Part shown: positions 868 to 16,486 of the stretch, one piece after another
Numbering within the stretch: position 1 is the stretch's first letter
How the letters are laid out: every line of letters starts with the position of its first letter
DNA from: Xanthomonas cissicola
GTDB lineage: Bacteria; Pseudomonadota; Gammaproteobacteria; Xanthomonadales; Xanthomonadaceae
Reading direction: 5' to 3'
DNA: 64,000 nt
NCBI RefSeq assembly: GCF_008801575.1
Contig: NZ_VZPL01000009.1
Span: 1 to 64,000 of the forward strand
Position numbers and translations under genes: made by a program
The notes under the pieces: generated by a model
What the model was told of the DNA's origin: nothing
Database searches by the model: none
What the model saw: only the letters and a program-made list of their open reading frames with translations

Positions 868-930
868 TGATACGCCCAGGGTTTCCTAGACATCTCAAGG
901 CCATGGAAAATGGTCGATTCGGAGGTGTCT

Positions 931-1203
931 ATGAGCAGCAAGCGGTATACGGATGAGTTCAAGATCGAGGCGGTCCGGCAAGTGACTGATCGTGGGTTCA
1001 AGGTGGCAGAAGTCGCCGAGCGGCTGGGTGTCACGACGCACAGCCTGTACGCCTGGCTGCGCACGTTCGGCAAGTCTGGCGTGGTGCAGCGCGCCGAGGT
1101 GGACCAGAGCGCCGAGGTTCGGCGGCTGAAGGCAGAGTTGCGTCGAGTGACCGAGGAGCGCGACATCCTAAAAAAGGCCGCCGCGTACTTTGCCAAGGGG
1201 TAA
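931..1203 (+). CDS. IS3-family transposase OrfA (helix-turn-helix and leucine-zipper part)
   Basis: This 90-residue protein begins at the ATG at 931, preceded by GGAGGTGTCT, a good ribosome-binding site. It contains an HTH_Tnp_1-type helix-turn-helix (YTDEFKIEAVRQV to LGVTTHSLYAWLR) and a C-terminal heptad stretch (VRRLKAELRRVTEERDILKKA) that in the family mediates multimerisation. The run CCTAAAAAAGG at about 1167 lies near its end and is a typical A6G slippery site for the -1 frameshift that makes the OrfAB transposase. OrfA binds the ends and regulates; the fusion is the active enzyme. Confidence 0.88.
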   Translation: MSSKRYTDEFKIEAVRQVTDRGFKVAEVAERLGVTTHSLYAWLRTFGKSGVVQRAEVDQSAEVRRLKAELRRVTEERDILKKAAAYFAKG

Positions 1204-1220
1204 AGGCAAAGTACGCCTTC

Positions 1221-2075
1221 ATGCAAGCCCACCGCGGGGAATTCAGGGTGTGTGCGATGTGCCGGGTGTTGCGGGTCAACCGGGCGGGTTATTACGCCTG
1301 GTTACGCTCGCCCGACAGTGAGCGCGCCAAGGAAGATGAGCGCTTGCTTGGACTAATCAAGCACCACTGGCTGGCCAGCGGCAGTGTCTATGGGCATCGC
1401 AAGATCACCACGGATCTGCGCGATCTGGGTGAGCGTTGTAGTCGCCATCGGGTGCATCGGCTGATGCGCACCGAGGGACTGCGTGCCCAGGTGGGCTATG
1501 GTCGCAAACCGCGCTTCCATGGAGGAATGCAGTGCAAGGCGGCTGCCAACCTGCTTGACCGACAGTTCGACGTGACGGAGCCGGACACGGCCTGGGCGAG
1601 CGATTTCACCTTCATCCGCACGCATGAAGGCTGGATGTATTTGGCTGTTGTGATCGATCTGTTTTCCAGGCAGGTCGTCGGCTGGGCGATGCGCGATCGG
1701 GCCGACACCGAGTTGGTCGTGCAGGCCTTGTTGTCTGCGGTGTGGCGGCGCAAACCCAACGCTGGTTGCTTGGTTCACTCGGACCAAGGGTCTGTCTACA
1801 CCAGCGATGACTGGCGCAGTTTCCTGGCGTCCCATGGCTTGGTGTGCCGCATGAGTCGGCGTGGCAACTGCCACGACAACGCACCCGTGGAGAGCTTCTT
1901 CGGCCTGCTCAAACGCGAGCGGATCAGGCGGCGGATCTATCCCACCAAGGACGCCGCACGCGCCGAGGTATTCGACTACATCGAGATGTTCTACAACCCC
2001 AACCGCCGCCACGGTTCAACTGGCGACCTGTCCCCTGTAGAGTTTGAACGGCGCTACGCGCAACGAGGGTCCTGA
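1221..2075 (+). CDS. IS3-family transposase OrfB (DDE catalytic part)
   Basis: This is the catalytic half of the transposase, about 284 residues from the first in-frame ATG; in practice it is read as an extension of OrfA by -1 frameshifting. An N-terminal HTH_21-like region (YAWLRSPDSERAKEDERLL) precedes the rve integrase core. The DDE residues are visible: D in WASDFTFIRT, D in VHSDQGSVYTS, and E in NAPVESFFGLLKRE. The frame is intact and the terminal repeats are present, so the element may still be mobile. Confidence 0.88.
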   Translation: MQAHRGEFRVCAMCRVLRVNRAGYYAWLRSPDSERAKEDERLLGLIKHHWLASGSVYGHRKITTDLRDLGERCSRHRVHRLMRTEGLRAQVGYGRKPRFHGGMQCKAAANLLDRQFDVTEPDTAWASDFTFIRTHEGWMYLAVVIDLFSRQVVGWAMRDRADTELVVQALLSAVWRRKPNAGCLVHSDQGSVYTSDDWRSFLASHGLVCRMSRRGNCHDNAPVESFFGLLKRERIRRRIYPTKDAARAEVFDYIEMFYNPNRRHGSTGDLSPVEFERRYAQRGS

Positions 2076-2098
2076 GTGTCTACGGAACCCTGGGCGTA

Positions 2099-2371
2099 TC
2101 ATACGCCATTTTCCTTTAACTGTTCTACATCCCACTTGGTGGATTCGTTGACCGCCCGGACACAAACATCGTACAGCCCATCGTTTATTCCAAGAAGCGG
2201 GACTATTATTCCCTGGCGCACCACCTCATCACCTTTTTCTGTATTGGTGAAGTCGGCCCAGAGATTACGCCCTACCTCAAGCCCCCCATAATGATCAGAC
2301 AAACGGCTTAGATCAAAAAGGACCAACCCATTAAAATCAACAGATAATTTAAAACAATTCATTGAGCACAC
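2099..2371 (-). pseudogene. 3'-truncated small gene, possible immunity-type protein
   Basis: Read leftward, this frame encodes up to 90 residues and runs into the right end of the IS3-family element, where an IS-derived TGA ends it; the native C-terminus is lost. Before the IS5 insertion an in-frame TAA preceded the GTG at 2371, so translation began at this GTG or at the ATG at 2362, behind a GGAGG now found beyond the IS5 at 3245-3249. The residues are acidic and soluble, without a signal peptide. Its place downstream of an Rhs-SUKH cassette fits a secondary immunity gene, but I recognise no family. GC content is lower than in the flanking IS. Confidence 0.5.
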
Positions 2372-2374
2372 TTA

Positions 2375-3240
2375 GAGCGGCTAACAAAACCCCTTGAATA
2401 TTGTCTCGCTGTCGGCAAAATTATGGACATGACACGTCGCAAAGAGATCCCCATTGCGCTGTGGAAGCGCATTGAGCCGCTGATTCCCCAAGTGAAGCGT
2501 TCGCCCAAAGGTGGACGGCCGCGTATCAGTGATCAGCAAGCCCTCAACGGCATCGTCTATGTCTTGCGCACGGGCATGCCATGGGAAGACCTGCCTGTGG
2601 AACTGGGCTATGGCAGCGGCATGACCTGCTGGCGCCGGTTGCGTGATTGGCAAGCCGCCGGTGTGTGGCATCGTCTGCATCAGGTGTTGCTGACCGAGCT
2701 GCGTCGCGCCCAGACGCTGGATCTGAGCCGAGCCAGTCTGGATGCCGCCAGTGTGGCCTCCCCCCGGGGGGCGCCTACACCGGGCCAAACCCGACCGATC
2801 GCGGCAAACTCGGCAGCAAACGGCATCTGATCGTGGACCGCAACGGCGTGCCCTTGGCAGTGTGCGTCACCGGCGCCAATCGGCACGACTCGGTCGTGTT
2901 CGAGGAGTTAATCGATGCCTTGCCGCCAATTGGCGGCAAACCAGGGCGCCCGCGACGTTGGCCAGACAAATTGCACGCCGACAAGGCTTACGACATCGAG
3001 CGCTGTCGCGCCTTCCTCAAGCAGCGCGGCATCATTGCGCGGATCGCACGCAAGGGAATCGAGCGCAACGACCGGTTGGGCCGTCATCGCTGGGTCGTCG
3101 AGCGCACGCATGCCTGGTTCGCAGGCATGGGCAAACTGCGCATCCGCTTTGAACGCCGCATCGATCTCCACTTGGCGCTGCTCTCGCTTGCATGCTCCAT
3201 CGTCTGCTTACGGCTTCTTCCTGGGTTTTGTTAGTCGCTC
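2375..3240 (+). mobile_element. Complete IS5-family insertion sequence, 866 bp, with TTA target duplication
   Basis: The ends are near-perfect inverted repeats: GAGCGGCTAACAAAACCC on the left and, reverse complemented, GAGCGACTAACAAAACCC on the right. The trinucleotide TTA flanks both ends (2372-2374 and 3241-3243), a clear target-site duplication. The size and two-frame transposase match IS5-family (IS427-like) elements. The intact duplication shows a simple insertion into the broken gene string downstream of the Rhs cassette. Confidence 0.88.
2423..3234 (+). CDS. IS5-family transposase made by -1 frameshift (two frames)
   Basis: The first frame (2423 to about 2770) gives the DUF4096-type N-terminal domain, including GGRPRISDQQALNGIVYVLR and GMPWEDLP. 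The second (about 2765 to 3234) gives the DDE_Tnp_1 core with GSKRHLIVDRNG, DKAYD and RHRWVVERTHAW (the catalytic E region). The frames join at the run CCCCCCGGGGGG (2761-2772): re-reading one G gives a continuous protein through SVASPRG and GAYTGPNP, as expected for programmed -1 frameshifting in this group. All expected motifs are present, so the element looks functional. Confidence 0.85.
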
Positions 3241-3516
3241 TTAGCCTCCATTTCTAGCCTTATTAAACCATTCTTTGAGCCTTTCAAATGCCTGAGATGG
3301 TGTGACATCATGCGCCAAAATAATGAAGACGGCCAGCACAGGGTGCGAATCATCGGCAAAACTCCCAGGAATCAGATTCTGATATGACGATTGTGAGGAT
3401 TGGATGCCGTGCTGTACCGCCGCAACCCAGTGTTCATGCGAGTCGGCGGTGTTTTGCAGGGGCGAATTTTTACTTGCCTCTCGCTTCTTTCGGGCGCGTA
3501 AACAGCTACGTCAGAT
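3241..3516 (-). pseudogene. Open frame lacking an ATG start; C-terminal remnant of an unknown gene
   Basis: Read leftward, an open frame of about 90 codons ends in a TAA at 3243-3241, which is also the IS5 target duplication. The residues look like protein, not noise: it includes HEHWVAAVQHGIQSS, GSFADDSHPVLAVFIILAH and a C-terminal AFERLKEWFNKARNGG. There is no ATG in the frame before the stop at about 3516, and the only near starts are rare codons. It directly follows the 157-residue membrane gene (stop 3511) and once preceded the gene now at 2099-2371. It may be a decayed 3' end left by recombination. Family not recognised. Confidence 0.45.
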
Positions 3517-3984
3517 TGTTGGATACACCAGTTTCTCGTTGTTCTCCGCGTGATCGTCGGACCAGTGAAGTTTGATGACTTGTTTGCTATTGGTCTCCAT
3601 ATGCACCGCGGCAATGAGTTCAACGAACTGGTGTGGGTCCATTCGCTCTAAGGGGAACTTGGCTTCGATATCACAATCGATGAGGCAATCGTTTCCTTCC
3701 GGGAACTCAATGGACACATTGCGAGCAACAGACTTGCCTTTGTTGAATATTTTTAGCCGATATTGATTGCTACCAAGCTTGATGAAGTTTGCGCCCAAGT
3801 CGGCTCTTTTGGTATTACTTGCCTCGCCGGCCTCTTTTTCGAGAAGAAGTTTATTCAATCGCTCCTGACTCTCTATCAGGCCTTTCTGTTTCTCGTTAAA
3901 TTGGTAGGTCTTCCAAGTGGCGTAGGCGGACAGAAGGAAAGCAGCCACTGCGATGACATCGCCCGTGCTAAAAGAGGCCATCAT
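3511..3984 (-). CDS. Membrane-anchored coiled-coil protein of unknown function
   Basis: This 157-residue protein has one predicted transmembrane helix near the N-terminus (residues about 8-27, VIAVAAFLLSAYATW), then a charged heptad-rich segment (residues about 28-58, EKQKGLIESQERLNKLLLEKE) and a C-terminal beta-rich domain with YRLKIFNKGKSVARNVSIEF. The tail therefore probably lies in the cytoplasm or periplasm on a short stalk. Its ATG overlaps the TGA of the upstream zinc-ribbon gene (ATGA at 3984-3981), which implies translational coupling. It belongs to the string of genes behind the Rhs effector. I recognise no named family. Confidence 0.75.
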   Translation of the reverse strand: MMASFSTGDVIAVAAFLLSAYATWKTYQFNEKQKGLIESQERLNKLLLEKEAGEASNTKRADLGANFIKLGSNQYRLKIFNKGKSVARNVSIEFPEGNDCLIDCDIEAKFPLERMDPHQFVELIAAVHMETNSKQVIKLHWSDDHAENNEKLVYPTI

Positions 3985-4268
3985 TTAATCCTGAAGTACT
4001 TGCTTCCGCCGAACGCTTTTCGGAGCGAATCGTTCAGCTGCTTCTGGATATCTTTGGCGACCTCCTGTTTAATCTCTTTGACGTGCTCGTCGATATTTTC
4101 AGAGTTGGCTCGGTTGAGCTCGTCTTTTGGAATCTCAAGGCCACAGCTGGCACATGTGAAGAGAGCAGTTGCGGAGGCATCGGAGTCGTCACTAGAAAAC
4201 TGCGTCCCTCCGCAAGTTGGACAGAAGAGAGTGATCGAGCGGTCGTATTTTCCGGCTTCAATTGGCAT
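3981..4268 (-). CDS. Small zinc-ribbon protein (similar to the ECs_2282-type family)
   Basis: This 95-residue protein has a zinc ribbon built from CPTC (C16, C19) and CASC (C39, C42), followed by a helical, charged tail with ENIDEHVKEIKQEVAKDIQKQ and a basic C-terminus. The layout resembles small putative zinc-binding proteins of the ECs_2282 type; that match is from memory. GGTGG stands just before the ATG. It follows the SUKH immunity gene by 65 bp and overlaps the next gene by ATGA, so the two form a unit. A role in immunity, regulation or a separate defence function is open. Confidence 0.72.
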   Translation of the reverse strand: MPIEAGKYDRSITLFCPTCGGTQFSSDDSDASATALFTCASCGLEIPKDELNRANSENIDEHVKEIKQEVAKDIQKQLNDSLRKAFGGSKYFRIK

Positions 4269-4333
4269 AGCCCACCTCAGATGATGTTGGTTTCAGGACA
4301 ACACTTAAGCTTCCTTTAAAATCCCCCGCATTA

Positions 4334-4816
4334 TCAATCATCATAAGCGTCGCCATAAGACTGGAATCCGTCCGCCAACCAATAATAGCGCTGCCCGGCA
4401 CACTCAACAGATTTACGGAGAAACTCCGAGAAACTTCGAGCTATCACGGGACAGGAACCGGCAACGCCATGGCGATCCCAGAAGCTGTCGTAACACCACC
4501 CCAGCCTTTCAGCTCCGGTGTCCAACGACACATATTCATCGGAACGCCCTGTAGCGATTATAACCCAAGAGTCAGTTATATCCCCCAAATTAATTTCTCC
4601 AACTATAACCTCATTGGATAGATGCAGTTCATTAGGTGCAGACACAGCCAGTGGGTATTCAGCATGAGTGAAAAGTTCCACACCACCGCATACTTCATAA
4701 AAAGATTTAAGGTCGGCTGGAAGATGACTTGAGATCTCAGCCTCGCGCGCGACAGGACGCACGATGCAGTCGCGCCTGGAGCTGATTAACTCGATTAGAT
4801 CGGAAATTTCGCTCAT
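4334..4816 (-). CDS. SUKH (SMI1/KNR4) family immunity protein for the Rhs toxin
   Basis: This 160-residue soluble protein has the SUKH fold signature: an N-terminal helix, then LPADLKSFYEVCGGVELF (the ...LP..l..fy...nG pattern), a central W in DSWVIIATGRSDEYVSLD, and a C-terminal SFSEFLRKSVE. SUKH proteins are a well-known superfamily of immunity proteins that neutralise polymorphic toxins, often HNH-type nucleases. Its ATG (4816-4814) overlaps the stop codon of the Rhs gene, so effector and immunity are translationally coupled. It most likely binds the toxin tip in the cytoplasm and protects the producer and its sisters. Confidence 0.88.
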   Translation of the reverse strand: MSEISDLIELISSRRDCIVRPVAREAEISSHLPADLKSFYEVCGGVELFTHAEYPLAVSAPNELHLSNEVIVGEINLGDITDSWVIIATGRSDEYVSLDTGAERLGWCYDSFWDRHGVAGSCPVIARSFSEFLRKSVECAGQRYYWLADGFQSYGDAYDD

Positions 4817-7800
4817 TTCCTGCAGCCCCTCTTCAAATACTTGTTAAATTCTCGATAGTAATTTTTTCGAGCGGCTTTCGGAACACCGGCTTCGTTGAAC
4901 ATCTTTTCACTTATCCTATAGATCTCAGGCTTAGAAATAGTGCTCCAGTCGACCTTACCCCCGACACGCCTGCCAGTTCTACCTTCCAACCAGTCACGAT
5001 ACGCTTTCTTTGTTGCGTCGTGATCGGCTTTTGTAAGAGCTATAGTTGGGTTATGAGATGCCCTTGATATATAACCAGGAACATTGTTCGCTGCCCAGAC
5101 ATCCAATATCCCATGATGCATCTCCAATCCAGGCTGCTTTACTCCGTATCCAACTATGTCATACGCAGCAACCGGGCTTAACCCAAAAGGGTCAATGTAC
5201 GATATAGGGTTAACACCATACGCATACAAAGATGTTCCGCCATCCAAACGGATAGGATCGAGACAAACGTACGACCCAAGCACACCATCATAATACCTAT
5301 ATCTATTGTAAATTAATCCAGTTTCGACATCATGGTACTGCCCCTGAAAGCTTATAGAGCTTTCAAATCCACCAGTACTTTTAAATCCAGCCCAACATGA
5401 TGACTTCCAGTCACGACGCCACACTAATTCTCCGGCGCTCGAAATTAAGCGCTGCGGGTACCCATTAGGATCGACCTGATAATGAAAGACAGTCCTCAAT
5501 CGTTCGTTAACTACAATCCCTGCAAGTCTTTGTTTGTCTACCGCCATGGAGGCGTCATGCTTTTCCACCCCATATACTGAGGCATCCTGAGGCGAAACAG
5601 CTTCCGCCGCATCATTTCCAAGGTCCGTCTCAACATTGTCCTTCAGCAAACTCGCTTCCGGATTTTCACTTCTCCGTCCACCTGCTCCGCCAGAACTTTC
5701 ACCCTTTTCTGAAGGCACCCCGCCCGCACCACCGAGAATCGTTCCGCCCAGCGAGCCTAATACATTGCCGCCTGAGCCCTCGCGTGGCCCGTCAAGGGCC
5801 TCGCTCGTTTCAGATGGCCTTAGGTTTAGAAAAGGCGACCGAGTGGCACCAATAGTCCCCTCTAGATTCTTTAGACTTCCCGAGCCATCCGATAGCGCCC
5901 GCGAAACATCAATCGGCATTTCGCGAAGATACCCACGTGAGACGGGAGCTTCCGCGTCGACCAAAGCTAACGGTACAAACGTACCCGGGTAATACACGTA
6001 TTCCCGCGTGCGCTCGTGCAGCTTCGCGAGCTTCTCCTTGCGACGTTTGGCCTCGATCAAGTCAGCCACATTCCCCACCCACACCGGCGCCGCCTCCGGT
6101 TCGTCGTGGGCCTGCTTCACTTCGCCCAGCAGCGCGTCGCCGTCCCAGTAGAACCAGGTGGTGTGGGTCGGGTTGCGCTTGAACACGCGCCGGCCCAGCG
6201 GGTCGTAGCCGTAGTGGGTGGTTTGGCCCGCCTTGCGGCTTTCGGCCAGGCGGTGGTTGGCGTCCCAGATCAGTTCCAGGTCGTCCGGTTCCGGGCCGGT
6301 CGGGCTGCCCTTGCGGATCAGGTCGCCGGCGCGGTCGAACACGTAGTGCACGCCGTCGTAGCTGCCCTCGCGGGTCCACTGCACCTGTTGGTCGTCGTCG
6401 CCGCCGGCCACCTTGCGCAGTTGCACCTGCTGCACGCGCGTGGCCAGCCGGTCGCCGGCCGGGTCGTTGAAGAAGCGCTCGATGCGGCCCTTCGGGTCGG
6501 TGTGCTGCAGCAGCCGGCCCAGCACGTCGTAGCGGTATTCGTCCACGCCCTGTGCGCTGTCGCGGCGGTGGGTCAGGTTGCCGGCACGGTCGTAGTCGTA
6601 GGTGGTCTCGAACAACGGCGCGGCATCGCGCAACACGGTCTGCGCGGTCAGCAGGCTGCGGCCGTCGTACTGGAACTGGCGCTGGACCTGCGCGCTGAGC
6701 TGTTCGCGGGTGGTGCGGCCCAGCGCGTCGCGCTCGATGGCGATGGGCGCGTCGTCGTTGATCGCCACTTCGACCACCTGGTCGCGCAGGTCGTAGCCGA
6801 ACGCGATCCGGTTGCCGGCGGAGGTCTCGCGCAGCACGCGGTTGCCCACTTCGTCATAGCCGTAGCCGACGCGGAAGCCGTCCTGCACTTCCTCCAGCAA
6901 CTGTCCCAGCGCGTCGAACCTGCGCGTGGCGGTGCGATGCCGGTTGCGCAGCTCCACCAGCTGCCCGCGCGCGTCGTAGGCGAACTGCTCCTGCACCTGC
7001 TGGCCCGGCGTGCGTATGTCCGGCAAGGTCTTCTTGACGATGCGCCCGAGCGGGTCGGTGGCGAAGGCAATGCGCTGGCCCAGCGGGTCGATCGTCGCGG
7101 TCAGCCGCCCGCAGGCGTCGTACTGGTAGTGCCGCGACTGACCCCAGTAGTCGGTCTCCTCGACGATGCGGCCCAGCGGATCGCGGCGCAGCCGGTACAC
7201 CTCGCCGCGCTGGTTGATCACCGCCACCAGCTGCTCTTCGCTGTCGTAGCGGTATTCCACCGTGTGCCCGTCCGGCTGCACGCGCTTGCCGATCTGGCCG
7301 ATGCCCACGTAGTACAGCCGCGTCTGCGCGCCGGCTTCGTCCACGTAGCGCACCAGCTGGTCCTCGGCGTCGTAATCGCACTGCACCTGCCCGCCGTCGG
7401 CCGAGCGCACGCGCAGCAGCCGGCCCTTGGCGTCGTAGTCGTAGTGCGTGGCCTGGCCCAGCGGATCGACCTGCCTGTGCAGCCGCCCGAGCGCGTCGTG
7501 CTCGTAGCGGCTCTCGTGGCCCAATGCGTCGCGCAGCCAGGCCAACAGGCCGTAGCGGTCGTAGCCCAGCTGGGTCTGCGCGCCGCGCGGGTTGCGTTGC
7601 GCGACCAGCAGGCCATGCGCGTCGTAGTCGTAATGCGTGGCGGCGCCCAGCGGATCGGTCTGCGTCTGCAGCAGCCCGCGCGCGTCGTGCGCCTGATGCC
7701 AGGCGTGGCCGCCCGGGTCGGTGACCGACAGCAGCCGGTCGTCCTCGTCGTAGACCTGGTGCAGCGTGCTGCCGTCGGGGCGGCGCAGGCGCAACAGGTT

Positions 7801-9405
7801 GCCGCGCGCGTCGTAGTCGAACGCGGTGCGCAGGCCCTCGGCGTCGGTGACCGCCACGGTGCGGCCAACCGCGTCGTACTCGAACACGGTGACCCCGTCC
7901 AGCGCGTCGATCTCGCACAGCGGCAGGCGGTTCTCGTCGAACTTGACCAGCGACACGTGGCCGAGCGAATCGGTCACCTGGGTCTCGCGCAGCAGGTCGT
8001 CGTAGGCGAAGCGATAGTCGTACAGGCCACCGTCGCCCCAGGCGTGCACCACCCGCCACTGCGCGTCGTAGGCGTAGTGGAACGACAGGCCCACGCGGTC
8101 GGTATGCCGGACCATGCGGTGCTGGCGGTACTCGAACGTGCGCGGCACGCCCAGCGCGTCCTCGGCGGCGACCAGATCGCTTTCCACATAGCGATAGGCC
8201 ACCAGCGGATGGGTCAGGCCGGTGGCCGGATCGTGCAGTTGCAGGCGGTCGATGCGGCCGTGCCGCGACTGCACCTCGATGAAGCGGCCCTGCAAGCCGT
8301 CCACGCCCCGTTCGACGATGCGCACCAGGTGGCCACCGCCGCGCTCGAAGCGCCAATGGTTGCCGCAGGCGTCCTCGACCTGCGCGATCGGCAAGGTTTG
8401 CGCGCGTGGCAGCACCCCGACGCCGGCCGCCGGCGCATAGGCGAAGCGGTAGCGCAGGTCGGACTTGGTCCGCACCAGCAGGTCGGTGCCCTCGCGCAGC
8501 AGCCGCGCGCCGTCGACGAACTCGACGACCGGGACGCCGTCGGCGTCCGGCAGCTGCGGGAACACGGCCACGCTGTGGCCGTCGTGGAACAGCACCACGC
8601 CGTCGGCGTCGATCTCCAGGCGGATGTCGGCCGGCGTCTGCCAGCCGTGGCCGCAGGCGCCGGCCTCCTCGCCGCGCCCGGAACCGTAGCCGCGCGACCA
8701 TGCCAGCGGCAGCCGCCCGGGGATCGCGAAGTCCTCGTGCTGCACCGACACGCTGCCGTCGCGGATGTCCACCGGCTCGGCGCGCAGCACCTTGCACTTG
8801 AGGAAGCCGGGTTGCATGTTGCCGAACACCTTCCTGCGCAGCCCACGGAACGCATCGGCCGCGCGCGCGCCCAGCTTGGAGCGGCGCAGCGCGCCCAGCG
8901 CGGCGAAGCCGGCATGCAACCCCAGCGTCATCCACGACACGGTCAGTGGCCCGCCGACTTGCACGTTGGTCGGGATGGCGACATTGATGCCGGTCGGCAG
9001 CCACAGCGAACGCAGCGGCTTCTTGGGCTTCTTGAACCGGAACGGCGGGATCAGCCCGGCGAGATTGCAATCCAGCACCGGCACCGCCAGCCGCGAGAAC
9101 GGGGCGCCATCGGCGGTGACCGTCTTGCTGCCCATGAAGATCTCTTCGCCATCGAACTGCGGCCCCATCGGCAGGCTCAGCTGCGGCGCCCACGCGCCCA
9201 GCGGAATATGGATGTCCAGCCCGCCGGTGCCGGCGGTGGCGCGTTTGACCCCGTTGACGGTGACCGTGGCGCCGAGGAACGGCAGGTAGTCGAACGGGTC
9301 CAGCACGATGCCGATATGCGGCGTAGGCAGCGGAAACGGCGGCACCTGATACATGTGGATGTCGATGCCCAACTGCGGATCGAAATGCTTGGCGGCGGTG
9401 CTCAT
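4813..9405 (-). CDS. PAAR-Rhs type VI secretion effector with C-terminal HNH-like nuclease tip
   Basis: This 1530-residue protein starts with a PAAR-like spike domain (about 10-120, including PTPHIGIVLDPFDYLPFLGA and FMGSKTV), followed by a DUF6531-type segment (about 210-240) and a long array of RHS/YD repeats (YDxxGRL..., about 430-1120). A Gly/Ser/Glu-rich linker (about 1190-1280) precedes the conserved core end with RYRYYD and the boundary DPFGL (about 1405-1409). The last 121 residues are variable and include LEMHHGILDVW (H1430, H1431), NPTIALT and DHDATKK, like HNH/endonuclease VII toxins. Rhs shells enclose the toxin and release it by self-cleavage after delivery on VgrG. Base composition drops sharply at about 5950, where the variable 3' end begins. 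GAAGGAG precedes the ATG. Confidence 0.9.
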   Translation of the reverse strand: MSTAAKHFDPQLGIDIHMYQVPPFPLPTPHIGIVLDPFDYLPFLGATVTVNGVKRATAGTGGLDIHIPLGAWAPQLSLPMGPQFDGEEIFMGSKTVTADGAPFSRLAVPVLDCNLAGLIPPFRFKKPKKPLRSLWLPTGINVAIPTNVQVGGPLTVSWMTLGLHAGFAALGALRRSKLGARAADAFRGLRRKVFGNMQPGFLKCKVLRAEPVDIRDGSVSVQHEDFAIPGRLPLAWSRGYGSGRGEEAGACGHGWQTPADIRLEIDADGVVLFHDGHSVAVFPQLPDADGVPVVEFVDGARLLREGTDLLVRTKSDLRYRFAYAPAAGVGVLPRAQTLPIAQVEDACGNHWRFERGGGHLVRIVERGVDGLQGRFIEVQSRHGRIDRLQLHDPATGLTHPLVAYRYVESDLVAAEDALGVPRTFEYRQHRMVRHTDRVGLSFHYAYDAQWRVVHAWGDGGLYDYRFAYDDLLRETQVTDSLGHVSLVKFDENRLPLCEIDALDGVTVFEYDAVGRTVAVTDAEGLRTAFDYDARGNLLRLRRPDGSTLHQVYDEDDRLLSVTDPGGHAWHQAHDARGLLQTQTDPLGAATHYDYDAHGLLVAQRNPRGAQTQLGYDRYGLLAWLRDALGHESRYEHDALGRLHRQVDPLGQATHYDYDAKGRLLRVRSADGGQVQCDYDAEDQLVRYVDEAGAQTRLYYVGIGQIGKRVQPDGHTVEYRYDSEEQLVAVINQRGEVYRLRRDPLGRIVEETDYWGQSRHYQYDACGRLTATIDPLGQRIAFATDPLGRIVKKTLPDIRTPGQQVQEQFAYDARGQLVELRNRHRTATRRFDALGQLLEEVQDGFRVGYGYDEVGNRVLRETSAGNRIAFGYDLRDQVVEVAINDDAPIAIERDALGRTTREQLSAQVQRQFQYDGRSLLTAQTVLRDAAPLFETTYDYDRAGNLTHRRDSAQGVDEYRYDVLGRLLQHTDPKGRIERFFNDPAGDRLATRVQQVQLRKVAGGDDDQQVQWTREGSYDGVHYVFDRAGDLIRKGSPTGPEPDDLELIWDANHRLAESRKAGQTTHYGYDPLGRRVFKRNPTHTTWFYWDGDALLGEVKQAHDEPEAAPVWVGNVADLIEAKRRKEKLAKLHERTREYVYYPGTFVPLALVDAEAPVSRGYLREMPIDVSRALSDGSGSLKNLEGTIGATRSPFLNLRPSETSEALDGPREGSGGNVLGSLGGTILGGAGGVPSEKGESSGGAGGRRSENPEASLLKDNVETDLGNDAAEAVSPQDASVYGVEKHDASMAVDKQRLAGIVVNERLRTVFHYQVDPNGYPQRLISSAGELVWRRDWKSSCWAGFKSTGGFESSISFQGQYHDVETGLIYNRYRYYDGVLGSYVCLDPIRLDGGTSLYAYGVNPISYIDPFGLSPVAAYDIVGYGVKQPGLEMHHGILDVWAANNVPGYISRASHNPTIALTKADHDATKKAYRDWLEGRTGRRVGGKVDWSTISKPEIYRISEKMFNEAGVPKAARKNYYREFNKYLKRGCRK

Positions 9406-9423
9406 CGCTACGCTCCTTCGTCG

Positions 9424-9552
9424 CTACAGCGCACGGGCCAGCGTGCGCAGGAACGCGCGCACATCGTCGCGATGCTCCACGCCCAGCCACGCCGCCGCGA
9501 CCATGCCGATCACCACGAACACGGCCAGCACGGCCAGTTTACGCGAACTCAT
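9424..9552 (-). CDS. 42-residue single-span membrane microprotein in the vgrG-rhs operon
   Basis: A 42-residue protein, MSSRKLAVLAVFVVIGM and onward, with a hydrophobic span at about residues 6-23 and a charged C-terminal tail (EHRDDVRAFLRTLARA). It is too short for most gene finders. Its ATG overlaps the TGA of the 542-residue gene (GCATGA at 9553-9549), and it ends 18 bp before the rhs start, so the four genes are tightly packed. The inner membrane is the likely location. A role in loading or retaining the Rhs effector is a guess from position. Confidence 0.65.
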   Translation of the reverse strand: MSSRKLAVLAVFVVIGMVAAAWLGVEHRDDVRAFLRTLARAL

Positions 9553-11177
9553 GCGGTGGCCTCGGTCAGTCCGGAACGTCCCGGCGCCTGCGTATCGCGC
9601 GTGGTGGTGGCGGAACCGGTCAGGGCGGACGGATCGGGCAGCGGCTGCGTCGCCGGCGGCTCGGTCCAGGCGGGGATCTCGTTGTCCAGCGGATGGCGGA
9701 TGTCCGGCAGCCCGTTCCAGGTCGGATGCAGGAAGTCGCGCCCCACCGCCACCACCTTGCGGAAGAACGCGTCGCCGCCCTGGATCAGGCGTTCGCGCGC
9801 CTGCGCGACGCGATGGAAGGCCTGTTCGAAACCGGCATGCAGCGCGGCCTCGATGCGATCCAGTTGCGCGCTGTCCGGGCGCGGCCCGAGCTGCGCGGCC
9901 TGCGCCTCGGCCTGCGCGTGCAGCGCGGCCACGGCCTGCAGATACGACGCGGCGCACTGCTCAAGCTTCTGCGCGCGTGGCTTGTCCTGCAGCAGCAGCA
10001 GATCCTGCAGCGTTTGCGGCAAGGTGGTGGTGCGGCGGTCCGCGGGCGGCAACGGCTTGGCCGCACGGATCGCCTCCAGCCCATGCGCGCGCGCGGCCTC
10101 GCGTTGGCCGTCCTGGGCCAGGCAGAACGCGGCCATGCGATAGCCTTCGATCACGAACATCGGGTTGGGGATCTCGGCGGCGGCCTTGGCCGCGGCGACG
10201 TAGGTCTCGGCGGCACGGCCGGGCTGGCCGGCGACGAACCAGGTGCTGGCCTCGCCGTACCAGCTCTGCATCACCAGGTCGCGCGCGGCCGGGTGCTGCA
10301 CGGCCAGGGCTTGCAGGCCGCACTCGCGCGCCTGCCGGTAGCTGGCGATGGCCTGCGGATACTGCTTTTCCTTCAGCCAGCCGCCGGCCAGCATCATGTT
10401 CAGCACCACCTGCTGGTCGGGCCAACCATGCCGCTGGGCCAGCGCCAATGGCCGCTCGACACGCTGCGCCAGCTGCGTCGCACTGCCGCGCTCGAGCACC
10501 GTCATCAGGTCGCTGAGCATCTGCCGGTAGGCCACCGCAGGCCCCGCGCCGCCCGACTGCGCCGCGGTTTCGCGCGCGATGTCGAACATGTCCAGCGGCG
10601 GCTCGATGCGCCGCGCGATCGCCGCGTGCCGCTCCAGCAGCGGCTGCCAGCGCGGATCCTCGTGGGTGTCGACCAGCACCAGGCGCAGCGCAGGCGACGG
10701 CGCCGCCGCCAGCGCCGCGTCCATCCAGCGCGCGAATGCATCGCCGGAGGTGGTCCGCTCCGGTTCCAGCACCACCGCCAGATAGCGCAGATGCACTTGG
10801 TGGTAGGCAGCAAAGGAATCCAGGACCTCGACCACGCCCAGCGCGCTGTCCGGGTGCGAGGGTCCCGGGCCGGGCCAGCCCAGTTCCACGCCCTGCTCGC
10901 GCAGCGCGCTCTGGCTGCCGAGGTAGCTGGCGTGCAGTGCCTGCTTCAGCGCGCGGCTGTAGCCGAAGCCGGTGTCGAACGGCGCATCCAGGCGCAGGAA
11001 GTAATCCGGCGCGTTCCAGTCGCCGGGATGTTTCTGCGCCTCGAAGAAGGCGGCCAACAGGCGCGCGGCGTTGGCCGGCACACGCCACACCAACAGGCGC
11101 AGCGCCGGGTCCTCGCTGGCATGCATCCACGCATCGCCAAGCAGCTCGATACGTTGTTCGACCGGATTCTTGCTCAC
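9549..11177 (-). CDS. TPR-like protein between vgrG and rhs, putative T6SS effector adaptor
   Basis: This 542-residue soluble protein starts at a GTG with GGGAGGG about 10 bp upstream. The first ~200 residues form a mixed domain (ALRLLVWRVPANAARLLAAFF; APSPALRLVLVDTHEDPRW). The middle (about 240-400) is helical and repeat-like, with TPR-type pairs such as YPQAIASYRQARECG and AAETYVAAAKAAAE. The C-terminus (about 470-542) is extended and Pro/Thr-rich. It has no signal peptide or membrane span. Sitting 22 bp after vgrG and overlapping the microprotein before rhs, it is where T6SS effector chaperones are normally found, but it is not one of the small DUF1795/Eag or DUF4123 types I would recognise. 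Confidence 0.7.
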   Translation of the reverse strand: MSKNPVEQRIELLGDAWMHASEDPALRLLVWRVPANAARLLAAFFEAQKHPGDWNAPDYFLRLDAPFDTGFGYSRALKQALHASYLGSQSALREQGVELGWPGPGPSHPDSALGVVEVLDSFAAYHQVHLRYLAVVLEPERTTSGDAFARWMDAALAAAPSPALRLVLVDTHEDPRWQPLLERHAAIARRIEPPLDMFDIARETAAQSGGAGPAVAYRQMLSDLMTVLERGSATQLAQRVERPLALAQRHGWPDQQVVLNMMLAGGWLKEKQYPQAIASYRQARECGLQALAVQHPAARDLVMQSWYGEASTWFVAGQPGRAAETYVAAAKAAAEIPNPMFVIEGYRMAAFCLAQDGQREAARAHGLEAIRAAKPLPPADRRTTTLPQTLQDLLLLQDKPRAQKLEQCAASYLQAVAALHAQAEAQAAQLGPRPDSAQLDRIEAALHAGFEQAFHRVAQARERLIQGGDAFFRKVVAVGRDFLHPTWNGLPDIRHPLDNEIPAWTEPPATQPLPDPSALTGSATTTRDTQAPGRSGLTEATA

Positions 11178-11199
11178 GCTTCGGGTGCCCTCCCAGGTT

Positions 11200-13443
11200 T
11201 CAGCAGTTCAGCTTGATTTCCGAGCCGTTGACCGACACCCCGGAGCCGTCGATGACGATCACCGAACCGCCGGCGGAGATGGTGATCTTCTCGCCGAGGA
11301 TCTCGATCGCCGCGCCGCCCACCGTCGCGGTGAGGTTGCTGCCCGAGGCCAGGGTCATGTTGCCGTTGGCCATCAACGTGTGGGTGCCGGTGATGCCCTG
11401 CTCCATGTCGCCTTGGACGCTGACCGTGCGCGCGCCGACGTTGGTGTCCTCCACTGCGCCCTGCACACTGCGTTTGTCCAGGCCGGTGATGCTGACCTCG
11501 CGCCCGGCGCTCAGCTGCTCGGTGACCTTGCCGATCACCTGGCGCAGCGAGGTCTGGGTGACGGTCTCCTTCCACGCGCCGGTGCGCTGGCTGGTGTAGT
11601 TGCCGGTCAGGGTGGTGACGAAATTGCCAGTGATGGTTTCGGTGTAGCCGGCCGCGGCGATGGTCTTGGTCTCGCCGGCCTGGTAGGTCTCGGTGACCGC
11701 GCCGGTGACGCTGGTGCTGCGCGTGCCAGTGACGCCCAGCGTGTCGTTGCCGGTCACGGTGATGCCGCGGTTGGCGCCGACGCTGATGCTCTGGTTGGAC
11801 CCCACGTCGATGCGGTGGTCGACTGCCACGCTGGTGCTCTTGTTGTTCTTCACCGTCGCGTTCTGGTCGTTGAGCACGGTGGTGACCATGTCGCGCTGCG
11901 CGCGCATGTTCAGCAGCTCGCCGCCGGCGGTATCGTGCATGGTCATTTCGTTGTAGCCGCCGCCTTTGACCGTCTTGGACTTCAGGCCGCTGACCTCCAT
12001 GCCGAACGGCGGCATGTTGTCTTCGTTGAACACGCGGCCGGTGATGATCGGCCGGTCCGGATCGCCATCGAGGAAATCCACCACCACCTCCTGGCCCACA
12101 CGCGGCGGCGACACGCCGCCCATATCGGCGCCGGCCCACGGACTGGCGCTACGGATCCAGCACGAGCTGTTCTCGCGAAACTGGCCCTTGCGGTCCCAGT
12201 GGAACTGCACCTTCACTCGCCCGTAGCGGTCGGCGTACAACTCCTCACCCGGCGGGCCGACCACGGTGGCGGTCTGCGGGCCGGGCATGCGCTGCTGCGG
12301 CGTGTCGCGCAGCGGCCGGTACGGGATCTTGCGCCGCAGCGCGGTGGCGCTGCAGAGATAAGTCGGCGCCTCGGCCTGGCTGTAGTCGCTGGAGAAGTTG
12401 TTGCGGCCTTCGCGATGCAGCTGCACGACGAAGAACTGTCGGTCGTCCTCGCTGCGGCCAATGAAATCTGGATGCCGTTCAAGGGTGAAACACCCTCCGG
12501 CCTGCAGCTCGGTACTATTGCCGGCGCCTTCGAACAACTTGGTGGGCCACACCGCTTCCTCGCTACGGATCGCCGCCAACGCATCGCCGACGCGGCTGTC
12601 GGCGAAACGCGCCGCGCCGTCGTAGTGGTAGCGCTCCAGTTCCGGGAGCGCGCCGACCGGGATCGACCGCGCCTTGCTGGCCGACAGCGCAGTACGCGGC
12701 TGCTTGAAATCGAAGCTACTCACCGCATGCGCGGTGGGACCGACCCGGCGCCGCGCCGACCAGCTGTGCAAGCCGGGCGTCCGCAGCACGCCCTGGTCGG
12801 ACACGAACGCCACAGGCGCCGGCTCGCCCAGTGCCGTGGAGGCGGTGGAATCGTCGGCCAGCAGCATCGTGTGCGCGCCATCGGCGTGCACGAACGTGTA
12901 GTAGATGCCGGCGTCCTCCAACAGGCGGGAGACGAAGGTGAAATCCGATTCGTTGTACTGCACGCAATACGACAGCTTGGGGAAGTTGCCGGCATTCAAC
13001 TCGTACTTGTAGTCGGCCAGCTGGGGGTATTCGCCGAATACCTGCTCGACAATCTCCAGCACGCTCAGATCCTGGAAGATGCGGCAATTGCTGGTGTACT
13101 GCAAAAACGCGAACCACGGGGCGACCTCGGCGCGGTACGCGGCCAATTCGCCTTCGGCACCGATCAGCGCGAACTCCTTGACGTAACCGTGCACGACACG
13201 GTCGTCGAACTCGTCGCCCAGGCTGAGCTGGATCGGCTGGCCGACCAGTTGCTTCAGTTCCAGGCGCCGCTGCGCGGACAGCAGGTCGACGGCGAACGCA
13301 TAGGGCGCCGATACCGTCTCCGTGCCTTCGAAGCGTTTGACGATGAAGGTGCCCGGATCCAGCGCGGTGGTGACCCGGATCAGGCGCCGATCCTGGTTCA
13401 GACGTAGCGCGGCAACTCCACTGGATATCACTTCGGCGTGCAC
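11200..13443 (-). CDS. vgrG: VgrG-type T6SS spike protein
   Basis: 747 residues if started at the GTG at 13443, which has AGGAG seven bases upstream; an in-frame ATG at 13467 lies before that site and is less likely. The N-terminal part is the gp27-like base (LDPGTFIVKRFEGTETVS and SDFTFVSRLLEDAGIYYTF). Then comes the gp5 OB-fold (LYADRYGRVKVQFHWDR, SPWAGADMGGVSPPRVGQEVVVDFLDGDPDRP). The C-terminus is a long beta-helix needle of repeats such as VSITG, MTLASGSNLTATVGG and ISAGGSVIVIDGSGVSVNG. VgrG trimers cap the Hcp tube and carry the PAAR-Rhs protein. No T6SS structural genes are visible here, so this is an orphan vgrG cassette in this window. Confidence 0.93.
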   Translation of the reverse strand: MHAEVISSGVAALRLNQDRRLIRVTTALDPGTFIVKRFEGTETVSAPYAFAVDLLSAQRRLELKQLVGQPIQLSLGDEFDDRVVHGYVKEFALIGAEGELAAYRAEVAPWFAFLQYTSNCRIFQDLSVLEIVEQVFGEYPQLADYKYELNAGNFPKLSYCVQYNESDFTFVSRLLEDAGIYYTFVHADGAHTMLLADDSTASTALGEPAPVAFVSDQGVLRTPGLHSWSARRRVGPTAHAVSSFDFKQPRTALSASKARSIPVGALPELERYHYDGAARFADSRVGDALAAIRSEEAVWPTKLFEGAGNSTELQAGGCFTLERHPDFIGRSEDDRQFFVVQLHREGRNNFSSDYSQAEAPTYLCSATALRRKIPYRPLRDTPQQRMPGPQTATVVGPPGEELYADRYGRVKVQFHWDRKGQFRENSSCWIRSASPWAGADMGGVSPPRVGQEVVVDFLDGDPDRPIITGRVFNEDNMPPFGMEVSGLKSKTVKGGGYNEMTMHDTAGGELLNMRAQRDMVTTVLNDQNATVKNNKSTSVAVDHRIDVGSNQSISVGANRGITVTGNDTLGVTGTRSTSVTGAVTETYQAGETKTIAAAGYTETITGNFVTTLTGNYTSQRTGAWKETVTQTSLRQVIGKVTEQLSAGREVSITGLDKRSVQGAVEDTNVGARTVSVQGDMEQGITGTHTLMANGNMTLASGSNLTATVGGAAIEILGEKITISAGGSVIVIDGSGVSVNGSEIKLNC

Positions 13444-13785
13444 GGCACCTCTCCTGATCCGTTCCATCGCGAACGTAGCCGATACGGCACCGCTCGCCAA
13501 TCTCCATAACTCTCGCTTCACTGACTTGCAGGCTCGTCGATCGCCGCAACATGCAGGCAACGAGCCCCTCGCTGCGAAATGCGTGCGACGGCGGGCGGCG
13601 CGACCAACACCCGGACTTTGCCTGATCGCGCATGCAGGCGCCAGCATTTTTGCCGGAAGAACGCCCGCCGAGCCTCAAAAATGAAAGCATTAAGATTTGT
13701 GCAAGCTCTTTAACGACGTGTCTACGCATCCGTGCAGCGGATGCGCTAAGAGCTTGTTCAAAGTCTGCTCGAATTATCCGATCAT
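13444..13785. other. 342-bp gap upstream of vgrG
   Basis: No gene is supportable here. It presumably contains the promoter of the minus-strand vgrG cassette. The first 24 bp extend vgrG's frame only if the upstream ATG at 13467 is used. The last ~35 bp (from about 13749) belong to the end of an IS remnant, starting AGAGCTTGTTCAAAG. I see no clear operator. Confidence 0.5.
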
Positions 13786-13955
13786 ATGGAGATGAGAGCA
13801 CGCTATTCCAGTGACATCAGCCGTGAGCAGTTCGAGCAGATCCGCGTCTTGCTTGAAGGTGCCCGCAAGAAGACCGCGCCACGCAAAGTCGATTTGTATG
13901 AGGTTTTTTGTGCAGTTCTGTATCTGCTCAAGAGTGGTTGCCAGTGGCGGATTGG
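13749..13955 (+). pseudogene. IS5-type transposase remnant, N-terminal part only
   Basis: From the ATG at 13786 the frame encodes MEMRARYSSDISREQFEQI and PRKVDLYEVFCAVLYLLKSGCQWR, the typical N-terminal domain (DUF4096-like) of a subset of IS5-family transposases. After GCQWR (about 13953) the similarity stops and the frame goes on with unrelated sequence to 14067. No catalytic domain follows. The sequence from 13749, AGAGCTTGTTCAAAGTC, looks like the IS end. This is a deletion remnant, a sign of past transposition at the edge of the T6SS island. Confidence 0.7.
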
Positions 13956-14164
13956 TTGCGGAGAGTTTGCTGATGCTGAGTTCGGCGCAGTCAAACAGAG
14001 GTTGGTTCGGCAGGTCGCGAGGAATTATCAAGTGATCGGAAGCTGTTGGGACTTTCCCGGTGGCTAAGAATGCGTTGCATCGTCCCAGTGAGATTAGCAA
14101 GCCAATGACAGTGAAAAACTTTCAACCAAGGTTTCATTGGCTCTCCTGATAAGCGCTTAACGCG

Positions 14165-14440
14165 TCACACTTCGGCGATGCGACCAGAATGGCGCGATAC
14201 CACTTTAAGTGGGCCAACTGGGCGTGTCGATAACACACCTTTTACCCGCTGCCCCTTGTTGCCCAACCGAATTGAAAACAGGTTGCGGGCCTGAATCTCG
14301 TAAGCAATCCACCGCCGCGATTTGCCCGCGAGCTTGGCATAGTCGGCAACGACCAGGTTGTCTGGCCCTTCAAAAATGTCCAGTACCTCCAATCGCTCTC
14401 GCTGGACTTCAGAGAGCTTCGGTAGAGCGTATTCAGACAT
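14165..14440 (-). CDS. Truncated stand-alone copy of the integrase C-terminal DNA-binding module
   Basis: This 91-residue protein resembles part of the C-terminal extension of the neighbouring integrase: YAKLAGKSRRWIAYEIQARNLFSIRLGNKGQRV here against FGKLAGKSKDQINRELKAGKLLSISLGNRGQRV there. After GQRV the similarity ends and the tail is unrelated, so the ParS-like domain is missing. It looks like a duplicated and then truncated helix-turn-helix module. It lies 100 bp downstream of the integrase in the same direction. Whether it is expressed cannot be told. Confidence 0.55.
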   Translation of the reverse strand: MSEYALPKLSEVQRERLEVLDIFEGPDNLVVADYAKLAGKSRRWIAYEIQARNLFSIRLGNKGQRVKGVLSTRPVGPLKVVSRHSGRIAEV

Positions 14441-14540
14441 TTGTACTGCAGAGAGCGCTGCAGGTCGCCAGAGCTAGAGCACCCTGATCCTATACGACCG
14501 GGGCGGCCCCGCTCCGGTCAACAGGCCGCAGCGTTGGCAA

Positions 14541-16460
14541 TCAAATGCCTTCAAACACCGCCCCTCCATCCACCATCCGGCGAACGCTCTGCCGCACGCT
14601 CTCGGGGATAGCCTGCGGTGAGACGGTCTCGGAGGCATCTGGATGATGCTGGTCGCCCATGATGGTCCGAACGATCGCGACCACGTTGGTCGGCGTGACT
14701 ACATCAATCGCTGCGCGATCACCAAGATCCGTGTGCGGTCGGGTCAGCATTCGGCACAGGTCCCACGAGTCCGCTCCTTGGCACTGATTCATGAGGACCT
14801 GGGTCAGCTTGTGCTTGAGTGGCACCAGTTGCCAATCGGGAACACGCTGCCCTCGATTACCCAGGCTAATGGACAGCAGCTTGCCTGCCTTCAGTTCGCG
14901 GTTGATCTGGTCCTTGGACTTACCGGCCAGCTTGCCGAACAGCGCCACCGGCAGGCAGCTAGGCGACTCGTACATGGCCAGCGTTTCCTCGCGCTCGCGC
15001 TGGATTGCGGACGCTTCCGGTTCCGGCGTTCGAGTGGGGGGCGGAGGCACCTGCGACAGCCGCTGGAAGGTAGTTCCCTCAGTACTTGGCACCACAACGA
15101 TCGGCGTGGGCGACACGGCGGCTTTAGCAGAAACATCGGCGATGGCCGCCGGCCCTTCCGCCATCGCTGGCACCCCTTCGATATGGATGGTTAGATGTGC
15201 ACCGGCAGCTTCCACTTGGCCCTGTTCGAGCAGGTCAAGACGGTCGGCCCAATCCTGCATCATCCGGCGGCGCGGCTCGACATACTTGGCGTGGTTGTAG
15301 GCCGAACTCACCTTGTTCGGATCGGAGTGCGAAAGCTGCGCGTCCACCCAAATCTTGGGATAGCCGATCTCGTTGAGCGCCGTAGAAATCGTTCCCCGAA
15401 TGCCATGGCCGGTCAGTTGGGCGTCGTAGCCCATTCGTTTCAAGGCAGCGTTGAGGGTGTTCTCACTGATGCGCTTCTTGAGTTCGCTGCGGTGCGCCAG
15501 CAGATGCTTCTGGGCAGGCCGCATTACGCCCAGGAGGTAGCGCACTATCTCGACCGCCTGGACAGACAGAGGCACGATGTAAGGCGGTATGTCATGCGGG
15601 CGCCTGCCGGCCTTGCGCATCTCGTCCTGAAGCTGTTTGACGATCTGCGGCGGAATAATCCACAGACCGCGGTCGAGGTCGAACTGTTCCGGCGTAGCCA
15701 GTCGCAGTTCGCCGGTGCGCACCCCGGTCAGGAACAGCAGTCGAATGCCGAGCTGCGTTTGCCAGCCACGCGGGTTGTAGAGCCTGAGCTTCTGGAGGAA
15801 GTCGGGCAGTTCGGGCAGACGCAGGTAGGGGTTGTGGCTCACCGGCGGCTTGGGCTCGGCCACCACGTCGAGGTCTGTGGCCGGATTCGCCTCCATGCCC
15901 TCGACAATGACCAGGGCGTAGCGGAACAACTGGCTCAGCCAAGTGCGGACCTTCTCGGCAGTGGTGAAAGCCTTGCGCCGCTCGATCCGCGCCAGGACGC
16001 CCAGGAGTTGAGGTCGGCGAATGTCGTAGATCGACATCCTCTCAAGGCTGGGCAGCACATCCTTTCCGAAGATTCTCTGGATCTGCGAGAGCGTGCTGTT
16101 TCTGCCTTCCTTGAGTTCCTTCGCGCGATGCTCGACCCAGGCATCGAAGACGGCCTTGAACGTGTAGTCCGAGGCTAGCTTGATAGCGCGTCGCTTCTGT
16201 TTGCGGTCAGTATGGGGATTGATGCCCTTCGCCACGAGCGCTCGGGCTTCATCACGCAAGGTGCGTGCTTCGCGCAGTCCGACCTCGGGGTAGTTGCCCA
16301 AAGAGATGCGCTTTTGCTTGCCGAGCCAGTAGTAGCGCAGATGCCACGATTTGCCGCCGGTGGGGGCGACTACAAGGCCGAGGCCGTCAGTGTCAGGGAT
16401 GCTGTAGGTTTTCTCGGCGGCCTTGGCTTGCCGCACGGTCAGATCAGAGAGTGCCATCAT
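14541..16460 (-). CDS. P4-type tyrosine integrase with an extra antitoxin-like C-terminal domain
   Basis: This 639-residue protein is about 200 residues longer than typical P4-type integrases. The N-terminal arm-binding DUF4102 domain (about 1-90, with LVVAPTGGKSWHLRYYWLGKQKRISLGNYP) is followed by the core-binding domain and the catalytic domain, whose R (TGVRTGEL), HxxR (GHGIRG), H (LSHSD) and Y (SAYNHAKY) are all visible by about residue 400. The C-terminal extension (about 490-620) has an HTH-like stretch (AGKSKDQINRELKAGKLLSISLGNRG) and a segment, DSWDLCRMLTRPHTDLG, that resembles the toxin-binding part of MbcA/ParS/Xre antitoxins. The gene points away from the adjacent tRNA-Gly, the presumed attachment site. 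Confidence 0.88.
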   Translation of the reverse strand: MMALSDLTVRQAKAAEKTYSIPDTDGLGLVVAPTGGKSWHLRYYWLGKQKRISLGNYPEVGLREARTLRDEARALVAKGINPHTDRKQKRRAIKLASDYTFKAVFDAWVEHRAKELKEGRNSTLSQIQRIFGKDVLPSLERMSIYDIRRPQLLGVLARIERRKAFTTAEKVRTWLSQLFRYALVIVEGMEANPATDLDVVAEPKPPVSHNPYLRLPELPDFLQKLRLYNPRGWQTQLGIRLLFLTGVRTGELRLATPEQFDLDRGLWIIPPQIVKQLQDEMRKAGRRPHDIPPYIVPLSVQAVEIVRYLLGVMRPAQKHLLAHRSELKKRISENTLNAALKRMGYDAQLTGHGIRGTISTALNEIGYPKIWVDAQLSHSDPNKVSSAYNHAKYVEPRRRMMQDWADRLDLLEQGQVEAAGAHLTIHIEGVPAMAEGPAAIADVSAKAAVSPTPIVVVPSTEGTTFQRLSQVPPPPTRTPEPEASAIQREREETLAMYESPSCLPVALFGKLAGKSKDQINRELKAGKLLSISLGNRGQRVPDWQLVPLKHKLTQVLMNQCQGADSWDLCRMLTRPHTDLGDRAAIDVVTPTNVVAIVRTIMGDQHHPDASETVSPQAIPESVRQSVRRMVDGGAVFEGI

Positions 16461-16466
16461 TAAACT

Positions 16467-16486
16467 CCTAAGTCATGAGACTTAGG
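16467..16486. promoter_or_regulatory. Perfect palindrome just upstream of the integrase gene
   Basis: CCTAAGTC-ATGA-GACTTAGG is a perfect 8-bp inverted repeat centred about 16 bp upstream of the integrase ATG (16460). Its place over the likely 5' untranslated region or promoter suggests an operator or an RNA hairpin that controls integrase expression. Nothing identifies the binding protein; the integrase's own C-terminal module is one candidate. Confidence 0.45.

Follow-up and report, generated by a model that had tools for sequence, protein, structure and literature searches.

What does a large protein of no recognized family do between the spike gene and the effector gene of a type VI secretion system (T6SS) cassette? 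The question is raised by a stretch of 64,000 nucleotides (nt) from Xanthomonas cissicola, contig NZ_VZPL01000009.1 (the window; contig C9 of genome G000), where the minus strand carries, in this order, vgrG, a gene for a 542-amino acid (aa) protein resembling tetratricopeptide repeat (TPR) proteins, a 42-aa open reading frame (ORF), rhs and a SUKH gene. Our analysis suggests that the 542-aa protein is probably the cognate T6SS loader (chaperone or adaptor) for a class of PAAR-Rhs effectors: it is encoded beside the client and VgrG, and it appears to go with the part of the client that serves delivery and not with the toxin. The first-pass annotation of the window, made from the letters alone, had proposed that the protein may be a new type of loader. 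The parts of the cassette are as follows.

11200..13443, minus strand: vgrG, T6SS spike protein (Phage_GPD 2.8e-85 in Pfam; TIGR03361 1.8e-168)
9549..11177, minus strand: 542-aa TPR-type protein, putative loader/chaperone of the Rhs effector (GTG start; no Pfam match; between vgrG and rhs in relatives)
9424..9552, minus strand: 42-aa predicted single-pass membrane microprotein (hydropathy, conservation in relatives, pN/pS)
4813..9405, minus strand: rhs, 1530 aa, with PAAR-like N-terminus, Rhs cage and C-terminal Tox-SHH (HNH/Endo VII) toxin (RHS_repeat 5.4e-73; Tox-SHH 5.9e-24)
8701..9405, minus strand: N-terminal region of Rhs, AAKHFDPQLGIDIH motif and PAAR-like domain, proposed docking part (profile matches, invariant positions)
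4334..4816, minus strand: SUKH-1 immunity protein, 160 aa (SMI1_KNR4 3.9e-8, above the family cut-off in Pfam)

The vgrG gene starts with GTG at 13443, next to a good Shine-Dalgarno sequence AGGAGAGG, and encodes a product of 747 aa and 80.8 kDa; its reading frame stays open as far as 13647. A gap of 22 nt leads to the 542-aa gene, whose stop codon shares four bases (ATGA) with the ATG of the micro-ORF, and 18 nt separate the micro-ORF from rhs. The SUKH start overlaps the rhs stop by 4 nt, and its SMI1/KNR4 domain adjoins the Tox-SHH nuclease toxin, which was matched in Pfam at Rhs residues 1427-1524. Coordinates, overlaps and Pfam matches agree with the one-strand cassette of the first-pass annotation and with the SUKH/HNH pairing recognized there.

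Relatives of the TPR protein were collected by a peptide-pattern scan of one genome per species (84,980 species), a non-exhaustive search that gave 103 stretches, 38 of which were confirmed by tblastn. These 38 named relatives were retrieved from the TPR sequence alone, with their neighbours ignored. Analysis of the neighbours revealed vgrG upstream of the TPR gene in 37 of the 38 loci (the exception being L042) and rhs downstream in all 37 loci with a readable flank, L025 ending inside the TPR gene. Within the window's taxonomic family, vgrG adjoins the TPR gene in 14 of 14 stretches and rhs in 13 of 13 readable ones; these stretches come from 14 of the 17 carrier genomes (not G000, G010 and G859) and are not independent of the named loci, since at least six are the same genomes. 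Together with the 42-aa ORF kept across genera, the counts for the named loci bear out the order of the cassette as non-chance. The neighbourhood survey had been named beforehand as a test that could refute the loader proposal, and the TPR gene was found together with both vgrG and rhs elsewhere, in genomes other than the window's. Two loci, L010 and L042, have the TPR-rhs pair without an adjoining vgrG; because L042 retains TPR and rhs in this way, the link to rhs looks tighter than the link to vgrG. L010 is a decayed cassette on a 1.3 Mb Caballeronia plasmid; at 10332-15170 it holds an rhs with an in-frame stop near the start and, farther downstream, a remnant of the TPR gene. In genome G1031 (L129, 1-10929) the C-terminus of the TPR gene, the microprotein and rhs are partially duplicated in tandem, with an identical microprotein in both copies; this second copy suggests that the microprotein-rhs junction can move as a unit.

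Comparison of identity matrices revealed which part of the effector the TPR protein accompanies. A total of 38 of 43 loci were used, five being dropped for lack of one full part. TPR identity correlated with that of VgrG (r 0.934) and of the Rhs N-terminus (r 0.911), not with that of the last 90 Rhs residues (r 0.143), which fall into 30 toxin clusters over the same loci and serve as a control inside the same gene. Between the window and L015, for example, identity is 93% for the TPR protein, 94% for VgrG and 92% for the Rhs N-terminus, against 13% for the toxin. Judged from these comparisons, the TPR gene is linked to the effector's delivery end, because its identity follows VgrG and the Rhs N-terminus and not the toxin end. 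The loader proposal builds on this, since the TPR protein accompanies the delivery end while the toxin varies.

The exact motif HxxPxxGxDxH was present in all 26 aligned Rhs N-termini, and a loose form of it in the Rhs of 45 of the 46 plus-strand loci searched; in the exception, L010, a stop codon separates the start from the counted rhs ORF. The Pfam PAAR family gave no call in the 26 N-termini at E<=0.1, and a search of PDB with the N-terminus profile gave no match. The profile (A4) did match two PAAR proteins that stand alone (1.7e-8 and 4.2e-5), both carrying PF05488 and both adjoining spike-like genes of other contractile systems (L096 1441-1845 and L097 1456-1848). The Rhs N-terminus is thus PAAR-like as judged by these profile matches, in which its AAKxxDx7H start and spacing recur. 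The prePAAR pattern AA[RK]xxDxxxH occurred in none of the 26 Rhs N-termini, and the known prePAAR motif may be a truncated version of the AAKxxDx7H start. The picture for membrane character is mixed: hydropathy over 19 residues was 1.25 in the window's Rhs N-terminus and ranged from 1.10 to 1.83 over the 26 rows, ten of which exceed 1.6, the customary limit. In samples of 398 genomes, full-length Rhs N-termini were found in G000, G205, G209 and G363, the same four with strong TPR matches; these searches score few candidates per genome, and the weaker matches of the Rhs search were the two stand-alone PAAR proteins.

For the 542-aa protein itself, no Pfam or PHROGs family was found, and no NCBIfam family at cut-off. 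No known enzyme family emerged from Pfam, from NCBIfam or, for the family rows, among the families listed; the profile search, also set beforehand as a possible refutation, had this outcome. Alignment A2 joined the window protein to 37 of the 38 named relatives (L025, cut at a contig end, was excluded). Among its 38 rows, weak TPR matches occurred in the middle part, TPR_2 in 23 rows at E<=1 (best 0.0026) and TPR_12 in 12 rows (best 7.3e-6). The window protein alone matches zero Pfam families; the signal comes from the family rows. Searched against PDB, the A2 profile met consensus TPR chains at 7e-4, and the first 200 residues received no fold assignment. The first-pass label of TPR-like is upheld in this weak form, for the middle part. 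The 25 families listed for the 38 rows include neither a toxin domain nor DUF1795, DUF4123 or DUF2169, consistent with the claim that the protein differs from the known adaptors.

Hosts of the 38 relatives are Xanthomonas, Lysobacter-type genera, Collimonas, Variovorax, Burkholderia and its kin, Mixta, Limnobaculum, Pragia and several metagenome-assembled genomes, one of them labelled Nitrospirales. At 414-435 residues, Burkholderia-type members are shorter, ending about 100 residues sooner. The gene is patchy within the genus (4 of 25 genomes) and was found in 17 of 297 genomes of the taxonomic family; one other genus of that family contributes two genomes with the protein (L127 and L128), and 938 bases read upstream in L127 held no hns-like ORF. 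The TPR search of 398 genomes gave five matches, strong in the four genomes named above; the fifth (G235, 3.9e-4) lies antisense to a biotin-synthase-like ORF and was judged chance. A second search matched 10 of 369 genomes, of which G000, G731 and G485 were accepted. The G035 match, a kinase-TPR protein, was set aside, as were six matches with E from 9e-5 to 9e-4 (L056-L061): L056 and L058 look like aminotransferase-like ORFs, L059 and L060 begin like these two, and L057 and L061 are unassigned, all six being put down to chance. Viral contigs and phage records yielded no relative of the TPR protein.

Analysis of the 42-aa ORF revealed a hydropathy of 2.59 over 19 residues in the window, and each of ten copies tested has one hydrophobic helix (2.19-2.82), with a conserved tail around RAFLRALxRAL. 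The ORF recurs in Xanthomonas, Lysobacter-type genera, Vulcaniibacterium, Mixta, Limnobaculum (L031, 43 aa) and G205, and all 13 readable junctions of the family stretches contain it, the L138 copy being read directly from DNA. It overlaps the TPR stop in all carrier lineages except Vulcaniibacterium, whose copy begins 72 bases farther on. Collimonas, L009, L028-L030, the Burkholderia-type loci and L049-L051 yielded no such ORF. On a quick TPR tree the presence of the ORF requires two changes, which could be one gain together with a loss in Collimonas. The pooled ratio of nonsynonymous to synonymous differences (pN/pS) over eight close sequences was 0.52 in frame, and 1.12 and 1.56 when the other two frames were read; the test is informative for these closer sequences only, since distant pairs often show pN close to pS (for example 0.33 and 0.32 for the window and L021). 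A search of 274 genomes of the class gave a strong match in the own genome only (4.8e-21), and seven weaker ones (6.6e-4 to 9e-3) sit within longer ORFs. Overall, the 42-aa ORF appears to be a genuine gene, because its length and, nearly always, its position are kept across genera. A membrane helix in cis may replace the microprotein in Burkholderia-type Rhs proteins: an insert peaks at 1.81 in L033 and at about 1.5 in L041 and L044, and the peak lies elsewhere in other rows.

The adaptor families described so far, according to the parts of the literature available, are Eag (DUF1795), DUF4123 and DUF2169. Like the TPR gene, Eag genes adjoin the effector whose N-terminus they serve. Eag clients are marked by the prePAAR motif AARxxDxxxH, as given in the accessible text of PMC7773334. 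In contrast to such clients, the Rhs N-termini studied here lack this motif; they are less membrane-like than the microprotein, though some membrane character is present. The comparisons fit a loader for a PAAR-like Rhs N-terminus of this kind, without the prePAAR motif of Eag clients. DUF2169/Tvp and DUF4123/Tap genes likewise have vgrG and a gene for a PAAR protein or effector close by, and their products aid loading onto VgrG, but neither domain is among the families listed for the 38 rows, and homology to DUF4123 was rejected after hhalign against ten DUF4123 proteins gave a probability of 0.24%. Weak TPR resemblance to SycD/LcrH was seen in 5 of the 38 rows (best 0.0017). The SycD/LcrH family, which binds membrane-spanning translocators, differs in belonging to type III secretion, and the window protein is much larger and scores 11.6 bits against a cut-off of 104.8.

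The closest published parallels anticipate part of the proposal. A single sentence of 2015, in the part of PMC4524185 available, suggested that a Yersinia pseudotuberculosis TPR protein standing in the place of eagR1 before rhs may do the job of Eag; that protein, likened here by description only, has the same place before rhs and the same proposed function. In June 2026 the gene order vgrG6-tap6-paar-rhs-tse6 was described for Stenotrophomonas rhizophila CFBP13503, with Tap6 (WP_181406191.1, 'hypothetical protein', 59.5 kDa) labelled an adaptor and detected in a whole-cell proteome in which secreted effectors were hardly detected, as far as the accessible portion of PMC13340143 goes. By gene order and masses alone, that operon resembles the cassette in the window: 59.5 against 59.2 kDa for the adaptor, 81.7 against 80.8 kDa for VgrG6 and 172.2 against 170.0 kDa for the effector V6. 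According to the same text, the orphan operon is followed by genes for Knr4/Smi1, Imm26 or leucine-rich repeat proteins, and loss of V6 reduced killing of one Gram-positive target. Its main text does not contain the word TPR, and in the accessible portion Tap6 is neither singly tested nor paired with a microprotein (PMC13340143). Preprints and most subscription papers aside, searches of the literature brought up no experimental description of a TPR adaptor for Rhs effectors or of a T6SS/Rhs microprotein. The loader reading is hence well supported by sequence comparison and partly anticipated in print; what this study adds is the defined TPR family, its survey and the conserved microprotein. 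The first-pass proposal of a new loader type is partly supported: the co-occurrence and the identity that tracks the Rhs N-terminus and VgrG, not the toxin, stand in its favour, while the earlier statements in print and a solitary relative in G485 set limits to it.

What the comparisons show directly is the gene order, the family, its inheritance together with the Rhs N-terminus and VgrG, its independence of the kind of toxin, and signs of coding in the micro-ORF; binding, the order of assembly, the choice between release and firing of the loader, and the role of the microprotein are inferred. The TPR middle part and the unclassified N-terminal part would most likely hold the PAAR-like N-terminus of Rhs (AAKHxDPxxGxDxH and the PAAR core), keep it competent and pass it to the trimer of the VgrG that the operon encodes. 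Cage and toxin would be passengers, and the toxin domain could change without affecting the loader. The microprotein may be a lineage-specific accessory of the loading step, at the membrane. If one family of TPR loaders serves a fixed client N-terminus while the toxins, dozens of them, are exchanged, this would help to explain how such Rhs effectors are loaded, and the family would serve as a marker for unknown antibacterial toxins; the conserved membrane microprotein offers a directly testable role. In the accessible parts of two surveys, 28.09% of 130,825 vgrG loci carried neither a known adaptor or MIX domain nor a newly described one (PMC10673891), and Xanthomonadales genomes were reported without DUF1795 genes (PMC6653060).

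Several points weigh against a loader. Part of the correlations with VgrG and the Rhs N-terminus follows from common inheritance as one operon, without contact, and such inheritance alone could give both. The distant relative in G485 stands without vgrG or rhs nearby. A T6SS sheath gene is present in eight of nine genomes carrying a family member, but G731 (96% complete) has the cassette and no sheath gene detected. A published survey, in the portion seen, counted TPR-repeat proteins located close to orphan VgrGs as predicted effectors (PMC6653060). This survey favours a secreted co-effector or spike filler, fired with VgrG and Rhs and not left behind as a loader would be, and the available text of PMC13373197 considers, in connection with Tvp proteins, accessory proteins that occupy the cavity of the baseplate. 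Such a role appears unlikely here, as no toxin domain is listed for the family rows and the TPR protein stays alike across the 30 toxin clusters while effectors diversify; the whole-cell detection of Tap6 speaks neither for nor against firing, given how little of the secreted effectors was seen in that proteome (PMC13340143, as far as accessible). Operon hitch-hiking on mobile islands, with the TPR protein acting generally in T6SS assembly or regulation, would suit the integrase and tRNA that adjoin the cassette, an identity correlation expected of any operon neighbour and the solitary G485 relative. We consider it improbable, because L010 and L042 retain TPR and rhs without an adjoining vgrG, and hitch-hiking would not readily give full-length Rhs N-termini solely in the strong-TPR genomes of the 398-genome samples.

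An immunity or anti-self function against the Rhs toxin is highly improbable. For other rhs genes, TPR or Sel1-like proteins encoded downstream have been put forward as immunity proteins, in the accessible text of PMC7216683 and PMC11669294, but the TPR gene here lies upstream of rhs, the SUKH gene overlaps rhs downstream, and the TPR protein is nearly unchanged in L015, where the toxin is unrelated. A split delivery module, suggested by analogy, has a small but appreciable chance of being correct. Eag-dependent Rhs effectors hold their membrane-crossing segment within their own N-terminus, whereas Xanthomonas/Lysobacter-type effectors would have it on the separate 42-aa peptide, with its one membrane helix and EVRAFLRALxRAL tail. 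The TPR protein would then chaperone both the peptide and the PAAR-Rhs tip, on the model of SycD-type chaperones holding translocators, and the peptide would be delivered or used at the membrane, letting the toxin through.

Apart from these questions of function, the genome is that of a Xanthomonas, and its TPR protein has its nearest named relatives in X. bromi, Xanthomonas sp. AmX2 and X. maliensis. PF08786 (Eag) gave no match in this genome and 24 relatives (0/25 genomes). DUF2169 gave no match in the own genome and is therefore absent at the TPR gene; two DUF4123 proteins of this genome lie away from the cassette, and its two T6SS sheath genes are both on other contigs. Two features lie upstream of the cassette.

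14541..16460, minus strand: tyrosine integrase (Arm-DNA-bind_3 5.5e-24; Phage_integrase 4.5e-16)
16686-16761: tRNA-Gly, close to the integrase

Since the integrase and tRNA-Gly lie on one side and transposase genes on the other, the cassette probably belongs to a genomic island; no second attachment repeat was reported within 1-16800. The first-pass span of the cassette began at 3981: the genes from 4334 to 13443 were confirmed, and the low end also takes in an ORF past SUKH, for a 95-aa zinc-ribbon protein of the ECs_2282 family (3981-4268, minus strand; NF047912, 8.3e-18). Beyond it lies a 157-aa protein matching phrog_6723 (3511-3984, minus strand; 3.5e-45). Both are possibly further immunity genes or island cargo. 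At the far end of the window, a second tyrosine integrase (60563-61789, minus strand) near tRNA-Leu (61974-62060, minus strand) suggests another island, and a tRNA-Ala/tRNA-Glu pair occurs twice at 54576-55729 on the plus strand, the copies being 955 bases apart.

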